Position numbers and translations under genes: made by a program. Below, piece by piece: positions 6,942 to 23,021 of a stretch of DNA of 37,955 bases. The stretch lies in NCBI GenBank assembly GCA_014360055.1, contig JACIYH010000002.1, positions 102,673-140,627 on the forward strand, written 5' to 3'. This DNA comes from Bacillota bacterium. GTDB taxonomy: Bacteria; Bacillota; Sulfobacillia; JACIYH01. A model generated the notes under the pieces. That model saw nothing but the letters and a program-made list of their open reading frames with translations. It was not told where the DNA came from and did no database searches. Within the stretch, counting starts at the first letter, position 1; the number at the start of each line of letters is the position of its first letter.

Positions 6942-8336
6942 ATGGTACCCACGTTGACTCCCTACCACTGGGTCTACCTGGCCTTCGTCCTCGTAGTGCT
7001 CATCTTCATGATCAAGCGACGCGACCCCGTGGTGGTGTGCCTGCTGGGTATCCTGGCGGTGAGCTGGGTTGCCTCGGGCAGCCTGGTAAGGGCTATCCGC
7101 AGCACTTTCGACGGCGTGGTGTTCGCCGGGCAGGACCTCTTCAGTACCATAGCGGTCATCTCGGTGATCGTGGCCATGTCGCGCGTGCTCAACGAGATCG
7201 GCGCCATGGAGCGCATGATAGCGCCCTTCCGCGGCTTCATGCGCACGCCCGCCCTGGCCTACTTCGGCAGTGCGGTGATCATGTTCGTGTTCTCCCTGTT
7301 CTTCTGGCCCTCGCCGGCCACGGCCCTCGTGGGGGCAGTACTCATGCCTGCCGCCGTAGCCGCGGGGTTGCCGGCCATCGGCTTCGCCTCGGCCATCAAC
7401 CTGGCCGGTCACGGCGCCGCCCTGTCCGGTGACTTCGTCATCCAGGGCGCGCCCCGCATCACCAGCTCTTCGGCGGGTATTCCCGTCAACGACGTCATCG
7501 TGGCTTCCTGGCCGCTGGTGCTGGTGTCGGGCGTGACGGCCCTCATCGTGGGGTACATCCTGCTGCGCCGCGACATGGCGGCGGGGAAGATCACCGGTGT
7601 GAACCTGACCGGCCGCCTGGAAGTGGAGAAACAGGAGGTCGTGCCCGGCAGCGAAAAGGCATCGCGCACGGCGGCCATCGTGGTACCCATAGCCTTCCTG
7701 CTCGACGTGGTGGGCATGTTTGTGTTCGACCTGCGGGGCGGCGATGCCACCGCCCTGGTGGGCGGCACCGCTTTCGTTATGATGGCCCTCTTCTCCTTCT
7801 GGGCGCTGGGGGACAAGGCTCTGGAGAGGTTCACCCAGCACCTGGTGGAGGGGTTCATCTTCGGCATGAGGGTGTTCGGTCCTGTGCTGCCCATCTACGG
7901 CTTCTTCGTGATGGGAGAGGTATCACCATTTAAGGCCATTGTGGGCGATTTCCTGCCCCAGGGCAGCCTGGGCATTTTCGGTGACTTCGGAGCGGCACTG
8001 GCGGCAGCCATACCCCTGAACGTGGTGGCAGCCGCCATCGGCCAGACCGTGGTGGGTTCCATCACCGGGCTGGATGGCTCTGGTTTCTCGGGGCTGAACC
8101 TGGCCGGTTCCACGGCCAAGGTGTTCGCCACCGCCACCGGTCGCAGCCTGGCCACCCTTACCGCCATGGGCCAGCTGGGCGGAATCTGGGTGGGCGGCGG
8201 CACCCTCATCCCGTGGGCGGTACTGCCGGTGTCCGGTATCACGGGCGTCTCACCCATGGACCTCACCCGGCGCAACTTCCTGCCCACGGTAGCTGCTCTG
8301 GCGGCGGCTACCATCTTGACCATGTTCCTGGCTTAG
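6942..8336 (+). CDS. Multi-TM ion/organic acid transporter (ion-transporter-superfamily type), specificity unknown
   Basis: ~11-12 hydrophobic segments; NLAGHGAALSGDFVIQG and internal repeat AAIGQTVVGSITGLDGSGFSGLNLAGSTAKVFATATG; RBS aggaggtga upstream of ATG. Confidence 0.75.
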   Translation: MVPTLTPYHWVYLAFVLVVLIFMIKRRDPVVVCLLGILAVSWVASGSLVRAIRSTFDGVVFAGQDLFSTIAVISVIVAMSRVLNEIGAMERMIAPFRGFMRTPALAYFGSAVIMFVFSLFFWPSPATALVGAVLMPAAVAAGLPAIGFASAINLAGHGAALSGDFVIQGAPRITSSSAGIPVNDVIVASWPLVLVSGVTALIVGYILLRRDMAAGKITGVNLTGRLEVEKQEVVPGSEKASRTAAIVVPIAFLLDVVGMFVFDLRGGDATALVGGTAFVMMALFSFWALGDKALERFTQHLVEGFIFGMRVFGPVLPIYGFFVMGEVSPFKAIVGDFLPQGSLGIFGDFGAALAAAIPLNVVAAAIGQTVVGSITGLDGSGFSGLNLAGSTAKVFATATGRSLATLTAMGQLGGIWVGGGTLIPWAVLPVSGITGVSPMDLTRRNFLPTVAALAAATILTMFLA

Positions 8337-8346
8337 GGCCAAACTG

Positions 8347-8369
8347 GGGAGGGGGAGCTTGCCCCTCCC
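8347..8369 (+). terminator. GC-rich hairpin between transporter and FAD enzyme (attenuator or weak terminator candidate)
   Basis: GGGAGGGG-gagcttg-CCCCTCCC perfect 8-bp stem; no U-tract. Confidence 0.35.
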
Positions 8370-8398
8370 CCTCCCATGCGACGAAAGGGGTGAACGGC

Positions 8399-9745
8399 GT
8401 GGCACGCGTGGTGGTGGTCGGCGGAGGGTGGGCCGGCTGCGCCGCCGCTCTGGCCGCGCGCAAGGTGGGGGCGGAAGTGGTGTTGCTGGAGCGCACCGAC
8501 CAACTGCTCGGTACGGGGCTGGTGGGCGGCATCATGCGCAACAACGGCCGCTACACCGCCGCCGAGGAGATGATCGCCCTGGGGGCGGGTGAACTGTTTC
8601 TGGCCTGCGACGCGGTGGCCAGACACCGCGGCATCGAGTTCCCGGGGCACAAGCATGCCACGCTCTACGACGTGGCCCGCATCGAGCCCCGCGTCCGCGC
8701 GCTGCTGATGGAAGCCGGAGTGGAGGTACACCTGCAGCACCGGGTCACCGGCGTCCGCGTGGAGGGCGACCGGCTGGCGGCGGTGGAGGCGGGTGCCGCC
8801 GGGGAGAAGACGGTCTGGGAGGGCGATGCCTTCGTGGACGCCACCGGCAGCGCCGGCCCCCAGGGGAACTGCACCCGCTACGGGCACGGCTGCTGCATGT
8901 GCATCCTGCGCTGTCCCTCCTTCGGGCCGCGGGTGAGCGTGGCCGATAAGGCGGGGGTCAGGGAGAAGATGGGGCGCACGCCCACGGGCCAGGTGGGCTC
9001 CATGAGCGGCTCCTGCAAGATCCTCAAGGATTCCCTGGCTCCGGACCTGCAGCGGGTGCTCGACCGTGACGGGGTGCTGGTGTTGCCGCTGCCCGCGGAA
9101 CTGCGCAAGGCCGACCTCTCCAAGAAGGCCTGCCAGCAGTACGCCCTGCCCGACTTCGCGGAGAACCTGATCCTGCTCGATACCGGGCACGCCAAGCTCA
9201 TGACCAGCTACTTCCCGCTGGAGGCGCTGCGCTCCGTACCCGGCCTGGAGAACGCCCGCTACGAGGACCCCTACGCTGCCGGGGTGGGCAACTCCATCCG
9301 CTATCTGGCCATGAGTCCGCACGATGAGGCACTCAAGGTGGAAGGGGTGGCCAACCTCTTCTGCGGCGGGGAGAAGGCGGGCCCGCTGGTGGGCCACACG
9401 GAGGCCATCTGCACGGGGACCCTGGCCGGGTTCAACGCCGCCCGCCATGCGCAGGGGCTGCCCCCGCTGGTGCTGCCCACCAGCCTGGCGGTCGGGGACG
9501 CCATCGTCCAGGTCACCGAACGGATGCGCGGGCCGGAGGAAGGCCTTACCGAGAAGTACACCTTCTCGGGCTCTGTGTACTTCGCCCGCATGAAAGCCCT
9601 GGGGCTGTACACCACCGACCGGGGGCAGATCCGGCAGCGGGTACGGCAGGCGGGGCTGGAGGGCGTGTTCTCCGGGCTGGCGCGGGCGGAGGCAGCGGCC
9701 AGCCGGGACCGGAGGGAGGTGCAGGGTGTCGGGAGAGAAGCGTGA
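8399..9745 (+). CDS. FAD-dependent oxidoreductase, GidA/TrmFO-like fold, Cys-rich insertion
   Basis: VARVVVVGGGWAGCAAALAARKVGAEVVLLER Rossmann; NLFCGGEKAGPLVGHTEAICTGTLAGFNAAR; Cys cluster CTRYGHGCCMCILRC; GTG 8399 with aaaggggtga RBS. Confidence 0.8.
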   Translation: MARVVVVGGGWAGCAAALAARKVGAEVVLLERTDQLLGTGLVGGIMRNNGRYTAAEEMIALGAGELFLACDAVARHRGIEFPGHKHATLYDVARIEPRVRALLMEAGVEVHLQHRVTGVRVEGDRLAAVEAGAAGEKTVWEGDAFVDATGSAGPQGNCTRYGHGCCMCILRCPSFGPRVSVADKAGVREKMGRTPTGQVGSMSGSCKILKDSLAPDLQRVLDRDGVLVLPLPAELRKADLSKKACQQYALPDFAENLILLDTGHAKLMTSYFPLEALRSVPGLENARYEDPYAAGVGNSIRYLAMSPHDEALKVEGVANLFCGGEKAGPLVGHTEAICTGTLAGFNAARHAQGLPPLVLPTSLAVGDAIVQVTERMRGPEEGLTEKYTFSGSVYFARMKALGLYTTDRGQIRQRVRQAGLEGVFSGLARAEAAASRDRREVQGVGREA

Positions 9746-10172
9746 TCCCTACCTGAGGGGGCAGCAGCCCCCGGCGCGGTTCGTGCGACACCGCCCGGTC
9801 ACCGGCGTGGTGGTGGCGGTGCTGGCGGGTTCCCTGCCCGACCGGGGGCTGGAACTGATTCCCCAGCCCTCGCGGGTGCTGTGCCGGGGTGAGGTGCACG
9901 AACTCATCCTCACGACTGAGGAAGCCGCGCCGGGTTCCCGCGTGGACGCCATCTCCTACCTGGGTTTCTTCGAAGTAAAACAGGGAGGGGTGGTGGTGGT
10001 GGGGGACGACCTGCGCGTACGGGGGTCGGTGATCGGGGAGATAGCGGGCTTCGACGCCACCCACCTGCCCAATCACCTCAACGTGGTCGTGCGGGGGAAG
10101 GTGGCCCTGGACGGGCTGGCCTGGCGCTTCGGGCTGGGCGACCCGGTGGTGATCGGCGGCCCTGCGGCCTGA
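9726..10172 (+). CDS. Conserved hypothetical protein, overlapping the FAD enzyme
   Basis: 148-aa ORF in GTG-start overlap with the previous gene; coding-like composition; no family recognised with certainty. Confidence 0.65.
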   Translation: MSGEKRDPYLRGQQPPARFVRHRPVTGVVVAVLAGSLPDRGLELIPQPSRVLCRGEVHELILTTEEAAPGSRVDAISYLGFFEVKQGGVVVVGDDLRVRGSVIGEIAGFDATHLPNHLNVVVRGKVALDGLAWRFGLGDPVVIGGPAA

Positions 10173-10179
10173 GTGGCGG

Positions 10180-10278
10180 TGGGGCCGGTGGCCCTGCAGC
10201 TTGAACGACCGCTGGGGCCGGTGGCCCTGGGGTCTGAAGGACCGATAGGGCCGGTTGCGCCCGGGCAGGGTTGGCGTA
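10180..10278 (+). repeat. 33-bp tandem repeat, 3 degenerate copies, intergenic
   Basis: tggggccggtggccctgcagcttgaacgaccgc / tggggccggtggccctggggtctgaaggaccga / tagggccggttgcgcccgggcagggttggcgta. Confidence 0.85.
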
Positions 10279-10290
10279 GGGGCGCCAGCC
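10269..10290 (+). other. Inverted repeat / hairpin ggttggcg-tagggg-cgccagcc upstream of PLP enzyme
   Basis: 8-bp stem with one G.T pair, 6-nt loop. Confidence 0.4.
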
Positions 10291-10333
10291 CACGGGTGAT
10301 GGTAAAAGGCGACGTACATCGGGAGGGGTGAAG

Positions 10334-11791
10334 ATGGGTTTCTCTTACCGGTTTCAACTTTACCGTTACCTGCAGCAGAATGCCGGCCGCATCTACGAGG
10401 AGATGCGGAAGGCCGCCGACGAGATAGGGATTCCGCCCGAGTTGCGCGGTAAGTTCGGGCTCACGGGCGCGATTTCAGGCGCTCCCGCCCCCCTGCGCCG
10501 GGACATCCTGGAGGCGAGCGAGAAGGGGGCCGGCGAGGTCATCCCCCTCGCCCGCCTGGTGGACGAGATCAGGGAGATCGTCAAGGATGTCTACGGGGAT
10601 GAATGGGACGTCTGCCCCGTGAACACCTGTGAGGCGGGCCTCTGGGTTTCTTTCGACTGCCTGTGCACGCCGCCCAACCTGGGCCGGGGGGACAACTACC
10701 GGGCCCGCTATATCGCCCCCTATGAGAAGCACCTGCACCACCAGGGGGCGTACGGCCGGCCCTTCCCGCCGCGGTACAAGGACATACTGGCCGACCGCGG
10801 CTGCACGGCCGGAGAACTGGGCTTCTACGGTAAGCGCCTCAACAACCTGGATACGGTCATCGTACCCCTGCCGGGGGCCCGTTACCCCAATCACGGCATC
10901 AAGTACTACCCGGTGCCCTTCATGCTGGACGTGGACCCCGAAGCCAGCCGTGCGGCCCTGGCCGAGGCGGCCGATCGCCACCGCGACCTCCTCACCGGGT
11001 TCACTTCCCTGGGCTACGACACCCCGGGCTACGGGTACGGGGTGAAGGACGAAAAAGGCACCCCTGTGCTGCTCAAGCACATCGGGGAACTGGCCCGCCG
11101 CTACAACGTGCCCTATGTGGTGGACAATGCGTGGGGCCTGCCCTTCGTGGGAACCGACCCCCGTGCCATCGGCGCGGATGTGATGGTCTACAGCATGGAT
11201 AAGGCCTCCGGGGCGGCCACCAGCGGGCTCATCATCGGGCGGGAAGACGTCATGGTCCCCATCCGCCGGGCGCTGGGCATGCACGGAGATCGCTACGGCA
11301 CCATTGCCTCCTACGGCAAGGCGGCCTATGTCACCCAGGACCCGGGGAAAGAGGCGCTCCTCACCCAGATCCAGGCCCTCAAGGTGCTGCGCGACCGGCC
11401 CGAGGTGCTCACCCGCCCGGTCGATGATCTGGAGGCCATCGTGCGCGAGGAACTGGCCGCGCTGCCCGCGAAGGTGCGCGCCGGCCTGGTGGTCAGCAAG
11501 TCCTACAACTCTGGCACGGTGGAGATCAACTACGAGCGCACCTGGCAGGACGGCATCGGTTTGCCCGTCTTCTCCATCGAGGACATGTACGCGGGCAGCC
11601 ACCTCATCCAGACCGGTCTCTCCCAGATGGGGATCATCCCTACCATCTGCTACGACGCCAACATCTTCATCTCGCCCGGCATGGGCACCAGCGACCCGGA
11701 GGGCAACCTCATCCCTGACCGTATGCGCCTGGCGGTGCGGGGGCTGGTGCGCGTCCTGGACATCCTGGCCCGCTGGGCAGGCCTGTCCTGA
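10334..11791 (+). CDS. Fold-type-I PLP-dependent enzyme (SelA/SepCysS-like or lyase/aminotransferase-like), function unknown
   Basis: VPYVVDNAWGLPFVGTDPRAIGADVMVYSMDKASGAATSGLIIG: Asp plus putative Schiff-base Lys in SMDK; ATG 10334 with ggagggg RBS (GTG 10328 also possible). Confidence 0.75.
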   Translation: MGFSYRFQLYRYLQQNAGRIYEEMRKAADEIGIPPELRGKFGLTGAISGAPAPLRRDILEASEKGAGEVIPLARLVDEIREIVKDVYGDEWDVCPVNTCEAGLWVSFDCLCTPPNLGRGDNYRARYIAPYEKHLHHQGAYGRPFPPRYKDILADRGCTAGELGFYGKRLNNLDTVIVPLPGARYPNHGIKYYPVPFMLDVDPEASRAALAEAADRHRDLLTGFTSLGYDTPGYGYGVKDEKGTPVLLKHIGELARRYNVPYVVDNAWGLPFVGTDPRAIGADVMVYSMDKASGAATSGLIIGREDVMVPIRRALGMHGDRYGTIASYGKAAYVTQDPGKEALLTQIQALKVLRDRPEVLTRPVDDLEAIVREELAALPAKVRAGLVVSKSYNSGTVEINYERTWQDGIGLPVFSIEDMYAGSHLIQTGLSQMGIIPTICYDANIFISPGMGTSDPEGNLIPDRMRLAVRGLVRVLDILARWAGLS

Positions 11792-11842
11792 GGCGGCCCC
11801 TTGAGTGCGGCCCCGGGCAGGGGAAAGGTGCGGTAGCCTGGA

Positions 11843-12583
11843 GTGGAGCGGGAACTGGAATACCTGACACTGAAGGCGATCGGCGAGTCTTCCCAACCCG
11901 TTGGTTCCTGGGGGTTGCGGGACGAACTGGCACGGCTGGGCATCTCGCTTTCGGAGGCCACGGCCGGGCGCATCCTGCGCGAGATGGACAAGCGCGGTTT
12001 CACCGAGCGGCGGGGTTTCCGGGGCCGGGTGCTCACCCCCCAGGGGCGGGAGCGCCTGGAGACCCTGGCCCGCGAGCACCATACCTCCAGGAACAGAAAG
12101 GCCTTCCTGGATGCCCTGCGGGCCCGCAACCGCGAGCAGTTGCTCGAGATCCTGGAGGCGCGGCGCGCCATCGAAAGTGAGGTGGCCCGCCTGGCGGCCT
12201 TGCGCGCGGGTCCGGACCTGCTGGAGGAAATGGGGCGGGTGGTTGACCGCCACCAGGCTCAGGTGTCCGGGCATCGTACCGGATGGCAGGAGGACGTCTC
12301 CTTCCACCGCCTGCTGGCACGTGCGGCCGGTAACCGGCTGCTGCTCGCGGCCAGCGAATTGGTGCGCGAGGAAGGCCAGTTGTCCCCCCTGCTGGAGTAT
12401 ATCCGCGGCCGGGTGGGCAGCGTCATGGTGGCCGACCACCGCGCCATCCTGGAACGGGTGAGAGCGCGCGATCCCGAGGGAGCGGCCCGGAGCATGGCGC
12501 GCCACATCGATAACGTCATCGCCGACGTGGTCAGGTTCTGGGAGCAGAACCCGGAGGGCCAGGGTGAGAATACGTCCGGTTAG
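11843..12583 (+). CDS. Transcriptional regulator: N-terminal winged helix (NrpR/RNase R-type wHTH-like) plus C-terminal FCD-like ligand domain
   Basis: LRDELARLGISLSEATAGRILREMDKRGFTERRGFRGRVLTPQGRERLETLA, then LLEILEARRAIESEVARLAALRA...EDVSFHRLLARAAGNRLL...VADHRAILERVRARDPEGAARSMARHIDNV. Confidence 0.8.
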   Translation: MERELEYLTLKAIGESSQPVGSWGLRDELARLGISLSEATAGRILREMDKRGFTERRGFRGRVLTPQGRERLETLAREHHTSRNRKAFLDALRARNREQLLEILEARRAIESEVARLAALRAGPDLLEEMGRVVDRHQAQVSGHRTGWQEDVSFHRLLARAAGNRLLLAASELVREEGQLSPLLEYIRGRVGSVMVADHRAILERVRARDPEGAARSMARHIDNVIADVVRFWEQNPEGQGENTSG

Positions 12584-12590
12584 CCGGGGT

Positions 12591-12629
12591 GAGAGCACCC
12601 GGTTGACAACCGCGCTCTCGTCCGGGTGC
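12591..12629 (+). promoter_or_regulatory. Overlapping inverted repeats (candidate operator and/or attenuator) ahead of the B12 mutase genes
   Basis: Perfect palindrome CGGTTG-A-CAACCG (12600-12612) nested in GAGAGC (12591-12596)/GCTCTC (12614-12619); competing 8-bp IR GCACCCGG (12595-12602)/CCGGGTGC (12622-12629). Confidence 0.5.
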
Positions 12630-12663
12630 AGCTGATCATCAAAGATGAGCAGGAGGACCGGCG

Positions 12664-12906
12664 ATGGGTGGGGCACTGGATCGCGTGGCAGATGCCCTCG
12701 ATGTGGAAACGTTCCTGGTGGGGGATAGCGAGGAGGAGTGCCTGCGGCTGGCCCGCAGGCTCATGGAGGAACTGGGGCTGCCGGACCACGACGTCATTTC
12801 GCTTCAGTTCCGGGGGCTGGGGGCACGGGTGCGGGTGCGGGCTTACCTGTACCGGCCCGGGGGCGAATACGGCTGGTTGAAAGAAGGGAACGCCAGTGGC
12901 GGCTAG
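12664..12906 (+). CDS. Small protein resembling the dimerisation domain that precedes the B12 domain in OraE/KamE
   Basis: EECLRLARRLMEELGLPDHDVISLQFRGLGARVRVRAYLYRPG; compare OraE region AAIEFAKKMNLEEVEVINREV..EGTRIELKGRVPF (recalled, not aligned); RBS gatgagcaggagg; overlaps next gene by 11 bp. Confidence 0.65.
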   Translation: MGGALDRVADALDVETFLVGDSEEECLRLARRLMEELGLPDHDVISLQFRGLGARVRVRAYLYRPGGEYGWLKEGNASGG

Positions 12907-14731
12907 CCCGGCCACAGCGCCGCGCACCCGACGGGTCTTGCTGGCCCCCCTCGACCCCGTCCATGACGTGGGGCTGAAACTGATCAAGAAGCAGTTGGAG
13001 GCACGGGGGCACCAGGTGACGCTGCTGCCTCCCGACCTCACCCCCGAAGAGGTAACCCGGGCGGCCCTCGCAGGCCGCTATGACTGCCTGCTGGTCAGCC
13101 GCACGGTGGGTTACGAGTCGGCGGAAATCCTGGCCCGGCTGGCCGATCTGCTGGACGGGGCCGGGCTCAGGCCCCGGATGCGCGTCGCGGTGGGCGGCAT
13201 GGCGGTGCGGCCGGAACTGGCCGCCGAAATGGGGTTCGACGCCGGTTTCGGACCGGGCACGCCCCCCGAGGCGGCGGTGGCTTTCGTGGAGGAAGCCCCG
13301 CCCCGCCATGACGAAGAAGCCCTCAGCCTGCAGAAGCCTGACCTGTGCGCGCTTTACAGCTACCACTGGAAGGACACGGTCATCGGTGACGCCGCCCGCG
13401 AACTGGCCCGGGGGATCGTGGCCTGGGCCGAGGGGGCGCGCACCCCCGGCAGCGAGCGGGCGGCGGTGGCCCAGGCCATGCTGGTAGCGGATGAAGGCGA
13501 GCGCCTGCGGCTGGAAGAGGAGTACCTCCACCTGTGCGGAGATGAGGTGGTGGCCATGAGGCGCGGGCAGCCGCCCCCTCATGGCCGCCTGATCGGAGAA
13601 GAAGAAAAAAGGCGTGCGCTGGGCCTGTTCGCCCGGGGCAGGGGGTGGCAGCCCCTCACCGTTACCGGCTACCAGCGCCTTCCAGTGGTTTTCGTGCAGT
13701 ACGGTACCGGCTGCCCCGTCATGGACGCCCTGCACGCGGTGGTGGCGGCCCGCTGGGGGGCGCAGGGAACCGTACACTTCGACCCGGCCTGGAGCGCCCG
13801 CCAGGAGGGGTTGCCGCGCGGGCTGGTGGCCTGGAGCGCGGACGGTACTTTTTACACGCCGGAGAACCTGCAGTTCTTCCGGGAGGCCACCGGGAACGAC
13901 CTGCTATGGCAGGTGAGGGCCCACCGGGGCCTCAACACGCCGGAGACGGTGGTGTGGGCAGCGGCCGCCGGGGCGGACCTCACCAAGATCAACCCGGTGT
14001 ACGGTTCCCTGGGCGGAGGTACCGACCCCGAGCGGCTGCTGGTGGATGCGGTGGCGGCCATGCGCCTGGCCGCACGCTACGGCCTGCCCTTCGACGTGGT
14101 GACCAACGAGGAACTGGGCGGCGTCCCCGCCCACAAAGCCATAGCGGGAATGCTGGCGGTGGTGGCCACGGCCCTGGAACTGGGGGCCCGCCCCATCCTG
14201 CAACCACTGTTCTGCTATTCCCCTGAGGCCATGCTCGAGGGGTACATGGAGCAGGACTACGTGGACTGGAACGCTGCCAAGGTGATCGCCCTGCGGCGCA
14301 TCATCGACGCTCCCATCTGGCCGGGGGCGCCCATCGGGTTCCTGACCCACACGGAAGAGAGGGTGCAATCGGCGGTGACCACCTCGCTGCACGCGGGGCT
14401 GGCCGCCTCCCTGGGGGTGGACGCCATCACCATAGCCTCCACGGACGAGGCATACTCCCGCGGCCCCATCACGGCGGCGGCGCGGGTGGACTCCCTGCGT
14501 GCCGTGGGGGAGGTGTTCCGCTTCCTGGGTGAGGCCCGGGTTTCCCCCACCACCCGTGCGGAAAAGCTGGCCGAACAGCTACTTGAGGGGGTGGCCGGCA
14601 CGCTGCGCGACGCCCTGCGGCAGCCTTCCTTCTGCCAGGCTCTTTACGCGGGGGTGTTCGGCACCCGTGAAGAAGGGGGTAACCCGGGGCGGGCGGGCAG
14701 AGGTACGGTGACCCGCTCCGCTCCCCAATAG
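12896..14731 (+). CDS. Cobalamin-dependent mutase-like protein: N-terminal B12-binding Rossmann domain fused to glutamate-mutase-like TIM barrel
   Basis: VLLAPLDPVHDVGLKLIKKQLEARGHQVTLLPP...YDCLLVSRTVGYES...MRVAVGGMAVRPELAAEMGFDAGFGPGT; barrel region VFVQYGTGCPVMDALHAVVAARWG...DLLWQVRAHRGLNTPETVVWAAAAGADLTKINPVYGSLGGGT...VTNEELGGVPAHKAIAGMLAVVATALELGARPIL. Confidence 0.75.
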   Translation: MAASPATAPRTRRVLLAPLDPVHDVGLKLIKKQLEARGHQVTLLPPDLTPEEVTRAALAGRYDCLLVSRTVGYESAEILARLADLLDGAGLRPRMRVAVGGMAVRPELAAEMGFDAGFGPGTPPEAAVAFVEEAPPRHDEEALSLQKPDLCALYSYHWKDTVIGDAARELARGIVAWAEGARTPGSERAAVAQAMLVADEGERLRLEEEYLHLCGDEVVAMRRGQPPPHGRLIGEEEKRRALGLFARGRGWQPLTVTGYQRLPVVFVQYGTGCPVMDALHAVVAARWGAQGTVHFDPAWSARQEGLPRGLVAWSADGTFYTPENLQFFREATGNDLLWQVRAHRGLNTPETVVWAAAAGADLTKINPVYGSLGGGTDPERLLVDAVAAMRLAARYGLPFDVVTNEELGGVPAHKAIAGMLAVVATALELGARPILQPLFCYSPEAMLEGYMEQDYVDWNAAKVIALRRIIDAPIWPGAPIGFLTHTEERVQSAVTTSLHAGLAASLGVDAITIASTDEAYSRGPITAAARVDSLRAVGEVFRFLGEARVSPTTRAEKLAEQLLEGVAGTLRDALRQPSFCQALYAGVFGTREEGGNPGRAGRGTVTRSAPQ

Positions 14732-14734
14732 AAG

Positions 14735-15940
14735 ATGAACCCTGCGGTCCTGGGTTGCGTGGGCACGGCCAAGAACACCGGCAAGACCACGGCTCTCACC
14801 GCCATCCTGGGGGAGGCGCGCCGGCACGGGTACCGGCCGGCCCTCACCAGCATCGGGTACGATGGCGAAGAGCTGGACAACCTGACCGGGCTTCCCAAGC
14901 CGCGGGTGGACGTGGAGCCTGGCGACCTGGTGGCCAGTGCCCTCCCGTGCCTGGAGCGCGCACCTGCAGGGTGGGACGTGGTGGCCGATTGCGGGGTGGC
15001 CACCGCCCTGGGTCCCCTGGTTCTGGCCCGGGTGACCTCCCCCGGCCGGGTGATCCTGGCCGGCCCCGCGCATCGACGGGGGCTGGCGACACTGTGCCGG
15101 TTGCTGGCCGCCCGGCGGGAAGCCGACCTCGTGTTGGTGGACGGGTCTTTCGGCCGGCTTTCGCCCCTGGCCAGGGCCCACGGTATGGTACTTTCCACGG
15201 GGGCGGCCCGTTCCCGTGACCTCGATGCCCTGGGCAGGGAGGCACGGGCCATTGCCGGACTGCTCTCCCTGCCGCGGGAAAGGCTCCGGGGGCTCCCCGG
15301 ACGGCGCCCCCGCCTGTTCCGCCACCTGGGGGCGGAAGAGGGCGAGGAGGCAGCCCGCCTGCTGGCCACGGGCCGGGATGTGCTGGTCGCGGGGATGGTC
15401 ACCCCGGCGGGACTGGCCCGCGTGGCGCACGCCCTGCGCCCGCCCCCCGGCGTGCCCGAGACCCGGACGTCAGGTGGGGTGGCGGGGGGGCCCGGCGCGC
15501 CCGAGGCGCAGGGGTGGGGCCGCCTGGTATTCACCGACCCGGTGCAACTGCTGCTGGCGGGCAAACCCGAGCAGGTCAGTGACGTCGTTTGCCGGATTAT
15601 CTCCCGGGGAGTCCGTTTGGCGGTGGGCAGCGGGCCTGCTATACTGGCGGTGACGGCCAACCCCTACTATCCCGTGCCCCTGGGCGGGGGCCGCTTCCGG
15701 GCCGGCGCGGTGGACGCAGGAGCGCTGCGGACATCCCTCGAGGAGCACCTGGGGGCAGGGGTACCGGTGGTGGACGTGCTCCGGGACGGGCCGGACCGCC
15801 TTTGGCGGGTGGTGGAGGAGAGATTGCTTGCTCGAGGACCGCGGGCGCGTGGACCGGCTGAACCGCTACCTGGCACGGTGCGGGCTGGGTTCCCGGCGCA
15901 AATGCGAGGAACTGATCCGGGCGGGCCGGGTACGGGTTGA
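14735..15940 (+). CDS. P-loop NTPase, putative aminomutase reactivase/chaperone (KamB-like)
   Basis: Walker A GTAKNTGKTTALTAIL near N-terminus; DLVLVDGSFGR; immediately downstream of the B12 mutase (3-bp gap). Confidence 0.6.
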   Translation: MNPAVLGCVGTAKNTGKTTALTAILGEARRHGYRPALTSIGYDGEELDNLTGLPKPRVDVEPGDLVASALPCLERAPAGWDVVADCGVATALGPLVLARVTSPGRVILAGPAHRRGLATLCRLLAARREADLVLVDGSFGRLSPLARAHGMVLSTGAARSRDLDALGREARAIAGLLSLPRERLRGLPGRRPRLFRHLGAEEGEEAARLLATGRDVLVAGMVTPAGLARVAHALRPPPGVPETRTSGGVAGGPGAPEAQGWGRLVFTDPVQLLLAGKPEQVSDVVCRIISRGVRLAVGSGPAILAVTANPYYPVPLGGGRFRAGAVDAGALRTSLEEHLGAGVPVVDVLRDGPDRLWRVVEERLLARGPRARGPAEPLPGTVRAGFPAQMRGTDPGGPGTG

Positions 15941-20165: not shown

Positions 20166-20788
20166 CCCTGTCCTACCGGCTGGCCAGAACCCTGGTGACG
20201 GCCGCCCTGAAGGTGCTCTTCTTCTGGAGGGTGGAAGGACGCGAGCACATTCCCCCCGAGGGACCTGTGCTTTTGTGTTGCAACCACCTGAGTGCATGGG
20301 ACCCCCCCGTGGTGGGTTGCGCCGCCACCCGCCAGGTGTACTTCATGGCCAAACGGGAACTCTGGCGCATACCGGTGCTGCGCACGGTGATCACCGCCCT
20401 GGGCGCCTATCCGGTTGATCGCGACCGGGTGGACATCTCCACCGTGCGCAGGTCACTCCAGATCCTGGAACAGGGCGGGACCCTCGGGCTCTTTCCCGAA
20501 GGGACGAGGAGCCGCACGGGTCGGTTGGGGCCCCTCCGCAGCGGGGCTGCCAAGCTGGCTTTGCGTACGGGGGCCGCGGTGGTCCCCATGGCCATCATCG
20601 GCCCCTACCGGTGGTTCCGACCCCTCTATGTACGGATCGGCAAGCCCCTCTACTTCGGCCGAGATAGCGACCCCAGCCGGGAGAAGGTGCGGGCGGTCCG
20701 GGACGAGATAGCGCGGGCGTTAGGGGCGCTGCTGGAGGGCTCCAATTCTGTCGAGGCAGGCAAACGTCGTGAAGGTACTGTTGGCTAG
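20150..20788 (+). CDS. plsC: 1-acyl-sn-glycerol-3-phosphate acyltransferase
   Basis: NHLSAWDPP (HX4D), LFPEGTRSRTG; between cmk and ispH. Confidence 0.95.
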   Translation: MHGPVTLSYRLARTLVTAALKVLFFWRVEGREHIPPEGPVLLCCNHLSAWDPPVVGCAATRQVYFMAKRELWRIPVLRTVITALGAYPVDRDRVDISTVRRSLQILEQGGTLGLFPEGTRSRTGRLGPLRSGAAKLALRTGAAVVPMAIIGPYRWFRPLYVRIGKPLYFGRDSDPSREKVRAVRDEIARALGALLEGSNSVEAGKRREGTVG

Positions 20789-23021
20789 GCACTTTGGCTT
20801 CTGTTTCGGGGTGGAGAGGGCGGTCCACATGGCCCGGGAGGCCGCGGGGCGGGGGCCCCTGGCCAGTCTCGGGCCGCTTATCCACAACCGGCGGGTAGTC
20901 GCCGAACTGGAGGCGGCCGGGGTCAGGTGGGTTTCCGCCCTGGACGATGTTGAGGGAACCGTGATCTTCCGCACCCACGGAGTGGGTCCGTCCCTATACG
21001 AAGAGGCCCGCCGGAGGGGACTGGAGGTTCTGGACGCCACCTGTCCCTTCGTCCGGCGCGCCCGCGAGGAGGCCCTGCGGCTCGCCGAGCAGGGCTACCG
21101 CGTCCTGGTGGTGGGTGATCCTTCCCATCCCGAGATCCAGGCGCTGGTGGAGTGGCTGCAAGGCCGGGCTACGGTGGTGAGGGGTCCGGAAGAGATCGGA
21201 GGCTTACCTGCCGCAGGGCGCGTGGGCCTGGTGGCGCAAACCACCCTGCCGGCCGGCATCCTCGAGAGCGTGGCGAGCGCGCTGCGCGAACGGGGCGCCG
21301 AAGTCAGGGTGGCCAACACCATTTGCACCGCTACGGCCCAGAGGCAGCAGGCCGCCCGGGAGGTGGCCGCGCAGTCCGACCTCGTACTGGTGGTGGGTGA
21401 CCCGGGCAGTGCCAACACCCGGCGCCTGCTGGAGATAGCGAGGGAGGCCGGTTGCGCCACCCACCTGGTCCAGGGGGCGGACGAGATCGACGCGGGCTGG
21501 CTGCGGGAGGTCGACACAGTGGGCATCGTTGCGGGGGCTTCCACCCCGGAATGGGCTATAAAGGAGGTCGTGGCCAAAGTGCAGGAGCTAGGTGGGGAGG
21601 ATCGTAAGGATCTGGAGGGGGTTTCCGAACAGGCGGCTGGCCTGGAGGCGACGCTGCTGACCGAACGGGAGCCGGCTACCCCGGTGGCAAGCCTGGGACA
21701 GGAGGAGGAGGTCCCGGAGGCGACGGAGGAACCGGGGGCCCCTGAGGTGGAGGCCGAGGACGTGACGGCGCAGGGCGAGGCATCGGTCACAGATGCTGCT
21801 GCGGAGGCACCGGTAGAAGGCGAGGCCGCAGATGCTGCTGCGGAGGCGCCGGGAGAAGGCGAGACGGCAGTCGTCGAGGATGAGGCGGTCCTGCTCGAGG
21901 AGAGCCTGGCACTGCTGCAACCCGGGGACCTGGTGCAGGGGCGGGTGATGGAGGTTACCCCCGAGGGCGTGCTCGTGGACGTGGGATACAAGTCCGAGGG
22001 CATCATCCCGCTGGGAGAGCTGGCCCGGCGGCGTTTCAATTCCCCTGAAGAAATCGTTCGCCCCGGGGACGAAATCACCGTCTACGTGCTCTCGGTGGAC
22101 AACCAGGAACAGGTCCTCAAGCTCTCCAAGAAGCGGGCGGACGAGATCCTCGCCTGGGACGGGCTCAAGCAGGCCCGTGACGAGGGCAGGGTTCTGGAGG
22201 CGGAGGTCATCCAGGAGGTCAAGGGCGGCCTGGTCGTGGACGTGGGTCTGCGGGGTTTTGTCCCCGCCTCTCAGATCGAGCGGGGCTATGTCCAGGACCT
22301 CAGCAAGTACGTGGGGAAGAAGCTGCGCCTCAAGGTCATCGAGCTTGAGCGCAGCAAGGGTCGCTGCATCCTGTCCCAGAGGGTGGTACTCGAGGAAGAG
22401 CGTCGGCGCAAGCGGGAGCAGACCTGGGCCACCATCGCCGAGGGCCAGATTCTTACCGGTACCGTGAAGAGCCTCACCGACTTCGGGGCCTTCATCGACG
22501 TGGGCGGGGTAGACGGGCTGCTGCACGTCTCCGAGATGTCGTGGGGACGTGTGAACCACCCCTCCGAGGTGCTGCAGGTGGGCCAGGAGGTGAACGTGAT
22601 GGTGCTGCGCCTGGACAGGGAGAAGGGAAAGATCTCCCTGGGCCTGAAGCAGACCATGTCCGACCCCTGGCAGTCCGTGCAGGAACGTTACCCGGTGGGG
22701 AGCGTGGTCACCGGGCGGGTGACCAGGCTGGCCCCCTTCGGTGCCTTCGTCGAACTGGAGCCGGGGGTGGAGGGGCTCGTCCACCTCTCCGAGTTGTCCA
22801 GCGACCGCGTCTCCCGGGCCGACGAGGTCCTCAACGTGGGGGAAGAGGTTAAGGTCAAGGTCCTGAGGGTCCGCTCTCACGACCGCCGCATCGGCCTCTC
22901 CCTACGCCAGGTCCTCCAGGACCAGGAGCGGGCCGAGATCAAGCGGTTCCTGAGTTCGGGCAACACGGCACCGCTCAGCACGGCTGTGAGCGAGGTGCTC
23001 AACAACAAAGAGAGCCACTGA
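20769..23021 (+). CDS. ispH: Bifunctional 4-hydroxy-3-methylbut-2-enyl diphosphate reductase / ribosomal protein S1-like fusion
   Basis: IspH Cys motifs FGFCFGVERAV, DATCPFV, NTICTAT; then acidic linker and four S1 repeats. Confidence 0.95.
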   Translation: MKVLLARHFGFCFGVERAVHMAREAAGRGPLASLGPLIHNRRVVAELEAAGVRWVSALDDVEGTVIFRTHGVGPSLYEEARRRGLEVLDATCPFVRRAREEALRLAEQGYRVLVVGDPSHPEIQALVEWLQGRATVVRGPEEIGGLPAAGRVGLVAQTTLPAGILESVASALRERGAEVRVANTICTATAQRQQAAREVAAQSDLVLVVGDPGSANTRRLLEIAREAGCATHLVQGADEIDAGWLREVDTVGIVAGASTPEWAIKEVVAKVQELGGEDRKDLEGVSEQAAGLEATLLTEREPATPVASLGQEEEVPEATEEPGAPEVEAEDVTAQGEASVTDAAAEAPVEGEAADAAAEAPGEGETAVVEDEAVLLEESLALLQPGDLVQGRVMEVTPEGVLVDVGYKSEGIIPLGELARRRFNSPEEIVRPGDEITVYVLSVDNQEQVLKLSKKRADEILAWDGLKQARDEGRVLEAEVIQEVKGGLVVDVGLRGFVPASQIERGYVQDLSKYVGKKLRLKVIELERSKGRCILSQRVVLEEERRRKREQTWATIAEGQILTGTVKSLTDFGAFIDVGGVDGLLHVSEMSWGRVNHPSEVLQVGQEVNVMVLRLDREKGKISLGLKQTMSDPWQSVQERYPVGSVVTGRVTRLAPFGAFVELEPGVEGLVHLSELSSDRVSRADEVLNVGEEVKVKVLRVRSHDRRIGLSLRQVLQDQERAEIKRFLSSGNTAPLSTAVSEVLNNKESH
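21791..21868 (+). repeat. 39-bp in-frame duplication in acidic linker between IspH and S1 parts
   Basis: agatgctgctgcggaggc... at 21791 and 21830; encodes DAAAEAPVEGEA / DAAAEAPGEGET. Confidence 0.85.

Follow-up and report, generated by a model that had tools for sequence, protein, structure and literature searches.

We think it somewhat probable that genes 6–8 of an eight-gene cluster in the window (the whole stretch of 37,955 nucleotides that was analysed) represent a third branch of the lineage of lysine 5,6-aminomutase (KamDE) and D-ornithine 4,5-aminomutase (OraSE), and that this branch serves an amino-acid route without relying on PLP. The central protein, gene 7, carries a KamD-type TIM barrel which, judged from sequence, has lost its PLP site. 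The cluster comprises the following genes:

Gene 1, 6942..8336, + strand: putative membrane transporter, distant CitMHS/ion-transporter type (no Pfam match itself; assigned from the matches of relatives)
Gene 2, 8390..9745, + strand: GidA-like FAD protein, probable oxidoreductase (PF01134, E 1.3e-31; start set by alignment)
Gene 3, 9726..10172, + strand: DUF6917 protein (PF21891, E 1.4e-42)
Gene 4, 10328..11791, + strand: fold-type-I PLP enzyme of its own subfamily, probable lyase (weak family matches)
Gene 5, 11843..12583, + strand: FCD-domain transcriptional regulator (PF07729, E 1.3e-24)
Gene 6, 12664..12906, + strand: small subunit, candidate detached N-terminal dimerisation domain of KamE (weak hhalign match to KamE)
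Gene 7, 12896..14731, + strand: B12-binding Rossmann domain fused to a KamD-type TIM barrel (PF02310; hhalign; AlphaFold/Foldseek)
Gene 8, 14735..15940, + strand: P-loop protein related to the lysine 5,6-aminomutase reactivase KamB (NF052386, E 1.4e-49)

Genes 6 and 7 overlap by 11 bp, and a gap of 3 bp separates genes 7 and 8. The open reading frame of gene 2 was listed from 8213, but an alignment of orthologues (n = 26) placed its start near 8390, so that genes 1 and 2 do not overlap. Several relatives also carry genes 9 (RsuA-type pseudouridine synthase) and 10 (nicotinate phosphoribosyltransferase) next to the cluster, accompanied by further genes from outside it; both appear to belong to the host backbone. 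Neither a B12 riboswitch nor another known RNA was found near the cluster, and a promoter and terminator scan around it was uninformative. Elsewhere in the window (20769-23021), a gene encodes LytB (IspH) fused to several S1 RNA-binding domains.

A search of contigs from one genome per species, with the alignment of gene 7 as query, revealed 80 distinct loci in named genomes, some of them clipped by contig ends. The gene 7 relatives shared 46–58% identity and mostly lay beside the same partners. They were found in at least three phyla (Bacillota, Thermotogota and Atribacteria), including Thermovorax subterraneus, Fervidicola ferrireducens, Heliorestis acidaminivorans, Heliobacterium chlorum, Sporomusa, Desulfovirgula, Desulfosporosinus, Paenibacillus and Pseudothermotoga. 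Gene 6 was recovered at 68/80 loci (some were missed by ORF tiling) and was located immediately 5′ of gene 7 in nearly all cases. Genes 4 and 8 were each present at 64/80 loci, followed by gene 5 (53/80), DUF6917 (52/80), gene 2 (49/80), RidA (42/80) and gene 1 (23/80); some of the 16 loci without the gene 8 reactivase lie near contig ends. Since the same families occur together at most of these loci from other genomes, the arrangement is not due to chance. Gene 7 occurred in 17 of 61 genomes from the same class (in one as a contig-end fragment), and every one of these also possessed gene 4 and DUF6917, while the 44 genomes lacking gene 7 contained gene 4 in two cases (one partial) and DUF6917 in four (one weak). 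Fisher tests, which ignore kinship between the genomes, gave p = 3e-13 for gene 4 and 1e-11 for DUF6917. In some genomes gene 4 and DUF6917 reside on other contigs than gene 7, showing that the co-occurrence does not arise from linkage alone. The preliminary description had proposed eight co-directional genes that form a B12/PLP/flavin cassette with a reactivase, outside any characterised pathway, and had staked this on conservation in other genomes. All eight open reading frames were indeed present on the + strand at 6942-15940, the neighbourhood search found the cluster conserved (80 loci, at least three phyla) and no curated family matches the cassette as a whole. The uptake-and-rearrangement route for an amino-acid-like compound suggested at the same time is plausible in the light of the present data.

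To place gene 7, which consists of a B12-binding Rossmann domain (residues about 12-133) and a TIM barrel (about 160-610), we compared a profile of 97 gene 7 proteins (one of them in fact a true KamD, from locus L039) with a profile of 11 KamD proteins from relatives. The hhalign comparison aligned the full barrel over 437 columns (probability 100, E 6e-45). Against single sequences, the gene 7 profile matched one KamD with E 9e-30, and a GlmE sequence gave no match (E 0.3). The closest match of the B12 domain was KamE (hhalign E 1.2e-17), and the domain scored against methyltransferase corrinoid proteins as well. Its axial His23 is present in 96/96 relatives, with the Asp of the B12 motif DxHxxG shifted or replaced (LDPVHDVG). 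An AlphaFold model of gene 7 (pLDDT 87.9, pTM 0.83) retrieved the alpha subunit of lysine 5,6-aminomutase first in a Foldseek search (8t0v_A, E 5e-18), with ornithine 4,5-aminomutase and then glutamate mutase behind it. The best-scoring structures were 8t0v_A, 1xrs_A and 3kow. In a barrel tree of 25 gene 7, 11 KamD and 4 OraE sequences, each of the three groups was monophyletic, and the gene 7 clade, for which a local support of 0.59 was reported, branched on a long stem beside KamD and OraE. Gene 7 scored below the curated cut-offs for Lys_5_6_beta (44 bits, cut-off 280) and OraE (30 bits, cut-off 800); the only curated model above its cut-off was the generic B12-binding domain (PF02310), and the GlmE barrel model PF06368 gave no Pfam match. 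No true KamD or OraE was found elsewhere in the genome of the window, where a search with PF09043 came back empty; eight related genomes contain KamD, OraE and a gene 7 relative together. Searches of the open-access literature yielded no paper on such a B12 enzyme, nor any on KamB-type reactivases or new AdoCbl mutases that covers the gene 7 family.

In lysine 5,6-aminomutase, PLP is contacted by Lys144 of KamE and by Arg184, Ser189, Tyr236, Ser238, Tyr263, Arg268 and Asn299 of KamD (PMC3958899). We mapped these positions onto 96 gene 7 relatives, the remaining row of the alignment being the true KamD from L039. Gene 7 and KamD share about 21% identity, and the equivalences derive from one profile alignment, with most of them in well aligned motifs; the equivalent of Glu341, whose placement in gene 7 is not confident, was left out of the comparison. 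In 96/96 relatives, KamD R184, S189, Y236, S238 and N299 are replaced by D296, A301, A342, R344 and E405, respectively, and R268 corresponds to G or A at position 374, so that five of the six replacements are invariant. The sole survivor of the seven listed barrel contacts is the stacking tyrosine Y263, kept as Y369 in 96/96 relatives. The loop bearing the PLP lysine (Lys144 in KamE, Lys629 in OraE) falls into an alignment gap and is absent from gene 7. The listed barrel contacts are kept in 11/11 KamD proteins, and their motifs persist in the KamD–OraE alignment. The active site of a TIM barrel lies at the C-terminal ends of its strands, and this is where the invariant residues of gene 7 are found in the model (strands 291-294, 337-339, 362-364 and 399-402). 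Among them, K364 marks the end of strand 4, and the invariant R344 follows strand 3. As read from the alignment, these changes are a coherent rebuilding of the site, not its decay. The exchange of the PLP site for invariant charged residues suggests that gene 7 most likely acts without PLP.

The two genes flanking gene 7 point to the same lineage, gene 6 weakly. Gene 6, without a match in family searches or to the OraE profile, showed a weak hhalign match to KamE residues about 21-57 (probability 53%, E 1.4e-4). Gene 8 matched the KamB model NF052386 over its N-terminal half only and below the cut-off (169 bits, cut-off 210), which identifies it as a KamB relative, not an equivalog. With gene 8 and, weakly, gene 6 being Kam-like, the core resembles a re-cut KamE/KamD/KamB set instead of an unrelated assembly: it looks like the KamE N-terminus, the KamE B12 domain fused to KamD, and KamB, in a new cut and order. 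These results bear on the core genes as previously described. The P-loop putative reactivase was borne out by the resemblance of gene 8 to KamB, and the small dimerisation-domain protein in part, the match of gene 6 being to the dimerisation part of KamE but weak. The glutamate-mutase-like barrel assigned to gene 7, together with the statement that a KamD-type PLP barrel was missing, had to be revised: the profile comparison and the fold search group the barrel with KamD, and a glutamate-mutase barrel was rejected for want of a GlmE sequence match and because of the weaker fold score.

Compared with KamDE/KamB, the cluster shares the KamD-type barrel, the KamE-type B12 domain with its axial His, the adjoining KamB-like P-loop protein and possibly a dimerisation subunit. 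Unlike in KamDE, however, the B12 domain is fused ahead of the barrel, the dimerisation part is a gene of its own, and the PLP-lysine loop and all barrel contacts save the stacking Tyr are gone. OraSE likewise combines barrel and B12 domain in one chain with a small partner subunit, but in the opposite domain order (barrel, then B12, in OraE) and with the PLP residues that gene 7 has lost; no ortA or ortB was recognised with gene 7. With glutamate mutase (GlmES) the system shares an AdoCbl mutase barrel with a B12 domain and the proposed PLP-free amino-acid chemistry, whereas GlmS and GlmE are built differently and the gene 7 barrel has no detectable sequence kinship to GlmE. On sequence grounds, gene 7 is thus clearly of the aminomutase lineage, yet fails its defining PLP features.

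The remaining genes suggest the metabolic context. Gene 1 had no match in family searches; 2/16 relatives in its group weakly match CitMHS, and loci elsewhere carry TRAP, branched-chain ABC or dicarboxylate symporter genes in the neighbourhood (named by sequence inspection). Gene 2 scored far below the cut-offs of the MnmG/TrmFO models and possesses invariant Cys residues (CxxC...C and others; n = 26). Gene 3 is a clear member of DUF6917 (145 bits, cut-off 27), a family with invariant HE and D..H..NHxN motifs on which no paper was found in the open-access literature searched. Its AlphaFold model is all-beta (pLDDT 92) and found no fold match among PDB structures (best E 0.58), so the modelled fold is possibly an unsolved one. 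Gene 4 gave only weak family matches, being distant to cysteine desulfurase, SelA, DgaE and methionine gamma-lyase; its relatives (n = 33, 53–93% identity) retain an invariant D266 and K292. A PDB profile search with genes 1 and 4 returned no informative relative.

Further partners are seen only in other genomes. At many loci, DUF6917 and gene 4 are separated by a RidA-family gene, and in Desulfovirgula thermocuniculi (L061:5934-6839) DUF6917 and RidA are naturally fused; an apparent RidA fusion of gene 4 (L092) was traced to a wrongly extended start. The genome of the window encodes RidA outside the cluster as well as a CobA-type adenosyltransferase; a PduO-type adenosyltransferase is absent. 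In Thermotogota, the order is YheO-like regulator, RidA, DUF6917, gene 4, gene 2, gene 1, DapF and genes 6, 7 and 8. Some Thermotogota and Atribacteria carry diaminopimelate dehydrogenase (Ddh; TIGR01921, 297 bits, cut-off 181) and DapF (TIGR00652, 241 bits, cut-off 115) immediately before genes 6-7-8; DapF with Ddh, or DapF alone, was found in Thermotogota, Atribacteria and UASB270. Where gene 4 is missing from an Atribacteria cluster (L100), a D-cysteine-desulfhydrase-family enzyme is present, and the Paenibacillus cluster encodes methionine-gamma-lyase-family and ornithine-cyclodeaminase-family enzymes. The Paenibacillus methionine-gamma-lyase-family protein matched gene 4 weakly around the PLP site and the Atribacteria protein did not match it, so both look like separate enzymes in the same place. 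In another Atribacterium, the cluster further includes one gene each of the DHDPS and Asp/Glu-racemase families as well as DAO/Fer2 flavoproteins. At three loci (L059:2233-4959, L158 and L160), the B12 core is accompanied by a TRAP transporter, an Asp/Glu-racemase-like gene and a set resembling D-hydroxyproline/opine dehydrogenase subunits; at three others (L088:1478-3648, L026 and L033), the vicinity of the cluster contains a NIF3-like gene together with a membrane gene. DUF6917 also occurs with no B12 mutase nearby, adjoining a diaminopimelate-dehydrogenase-like gene (L202:6831-8288) or an aspartate-dehydrogenase-like gene (L205:6250-7513), and going by these neighbours the family may play a role in amino-acid oxidation or imine handling generally.

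Lyase-type PLP enzymes, racemases and D-amino-acid dehydrogenases all point to an alpha-amino acid. The core cluster shows no evident CoA enzymes and the PLP contacts are missing, which makes glutamate mutase the nearest chemical analogue. The enzyme would consist of a small, probably dimerisation, subunit, the fused B12/barrel protein and a reactivase that exchanges damaged B12. In the barrel, the PLP site would have been swapped for invariant Asp, Arg, Glu and Lys residues, which would suit the binding of carboxylates. The substrate would be a free alpha-amino acid that probably bears a second carboxylate and is isomerised directly by the adenosyl radical as in glutamate mutase, although this type of chemistry is less certain and assigned by analogy. 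In some genomes a racemase (DapF or Asp/Glu type) would supply the right enantiomer. The gene 4 enzyme might then eliminate a group from the amino acid, and RidA, perhaps with DUF6917, would hydrolyse the enamine or imine to the 2-oxo acid; enamines and imines set free by PLP lyases or amino-acid oxidases are known substrates for hydrolysis by RidA. A redox step could be provided by the GidA-like flavoenzyme or the diaminopimelate-dehydrogenase-like enzyme. We infer the absence of bound PLP, the kind of shift and the order of these steps from the features above. The chances are about even, in our estimate, that this PLP-free third class subjects an alpha-amino acid to a radical rearrangement not described before, in an equally undescribed pathway that involves RidA and DUF6917 and extends over at least three phyla. 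The shifted or replaced Asp of the B12 motif and the loci that lack a reactivase weigh against our reading of genes 6–8.

PLP could still bind despite the lost contacts if K364, R344 and Y369 formed an alternative site. In such a rebuilt site, K364 would be the aldimine lysine, R344 would face the pyridine nitrogen as in alanine racemase and Y369 would stack, and gene 7 would be a PLP-dependent aminomutase after all, moving the amino group of a new substrate. K364 and R344 are invariant and the Y263 equivalent is kept throughout, the characterised KamD and OraE relatives use PLP, and DapF and Ddh are reminiscent of the racemase and dehydrogenase reactions in the routes for lysine and ornithine. 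We nevertheless regard this as rather unlikely, with the phosphate-binding Arg184, Ser189 and Arg268 as well as the lysine loop all lost. DapF and Ddh, both above cut-off within clusters, raise the idea of a diaminopimelate breakdown route with a mutase acting on diaminopimelate or a derivative. The DHDPS-family gene in one Atribacterium cluster agrees with this, and the genomes of L100 and L088 each encode two copies of DapF, one in the cluster and one elsewhere. However, most Bacillota clusters, that of the window included, lack DapF and Ddh, and relatives of these enzymes can take other substrates; we consider this route unlikely, and it would be compatible with the PLP-free mutase.

Two further readings would take gene 7 out of the mutases. 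The lyase-like PLP enzymes and RidA in the neighbourhood would suit an eliminase or another B12 radical enzyme of the ammonia lyase/dehydratase type acting on an amino acid, but the barrel and the His-on B12 domain belong to the mutase lineage, and the known eliminases bind B12 base-on or are members of other families, which makes this improbable. A corrinoid methyltransferase or regulatory B12 protein, suggested by the scores of the B12 domain against methyltransferase corrinoid proteins, deserves very little credence in view of the KamD-type barrel and the KamB-like reactivase, and none of the neighbourhoods inspected contained a recognisable methyltransferase gene.

The repertoire of known AdoCbl-dependent rearrangements is small, and PLP is considered essential within the aminomutase lineage. 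If the PLP-free reading of genes 6–8 is true, a widespread PLP-less relative would offer a natural experiment on the kinship of radical aminomutases and carbon-skeleton mutases. It would also imply a new amino-acid route in anaerobes, many of them from hot or subsurface habitats, and would give DUF6917 a pathway.
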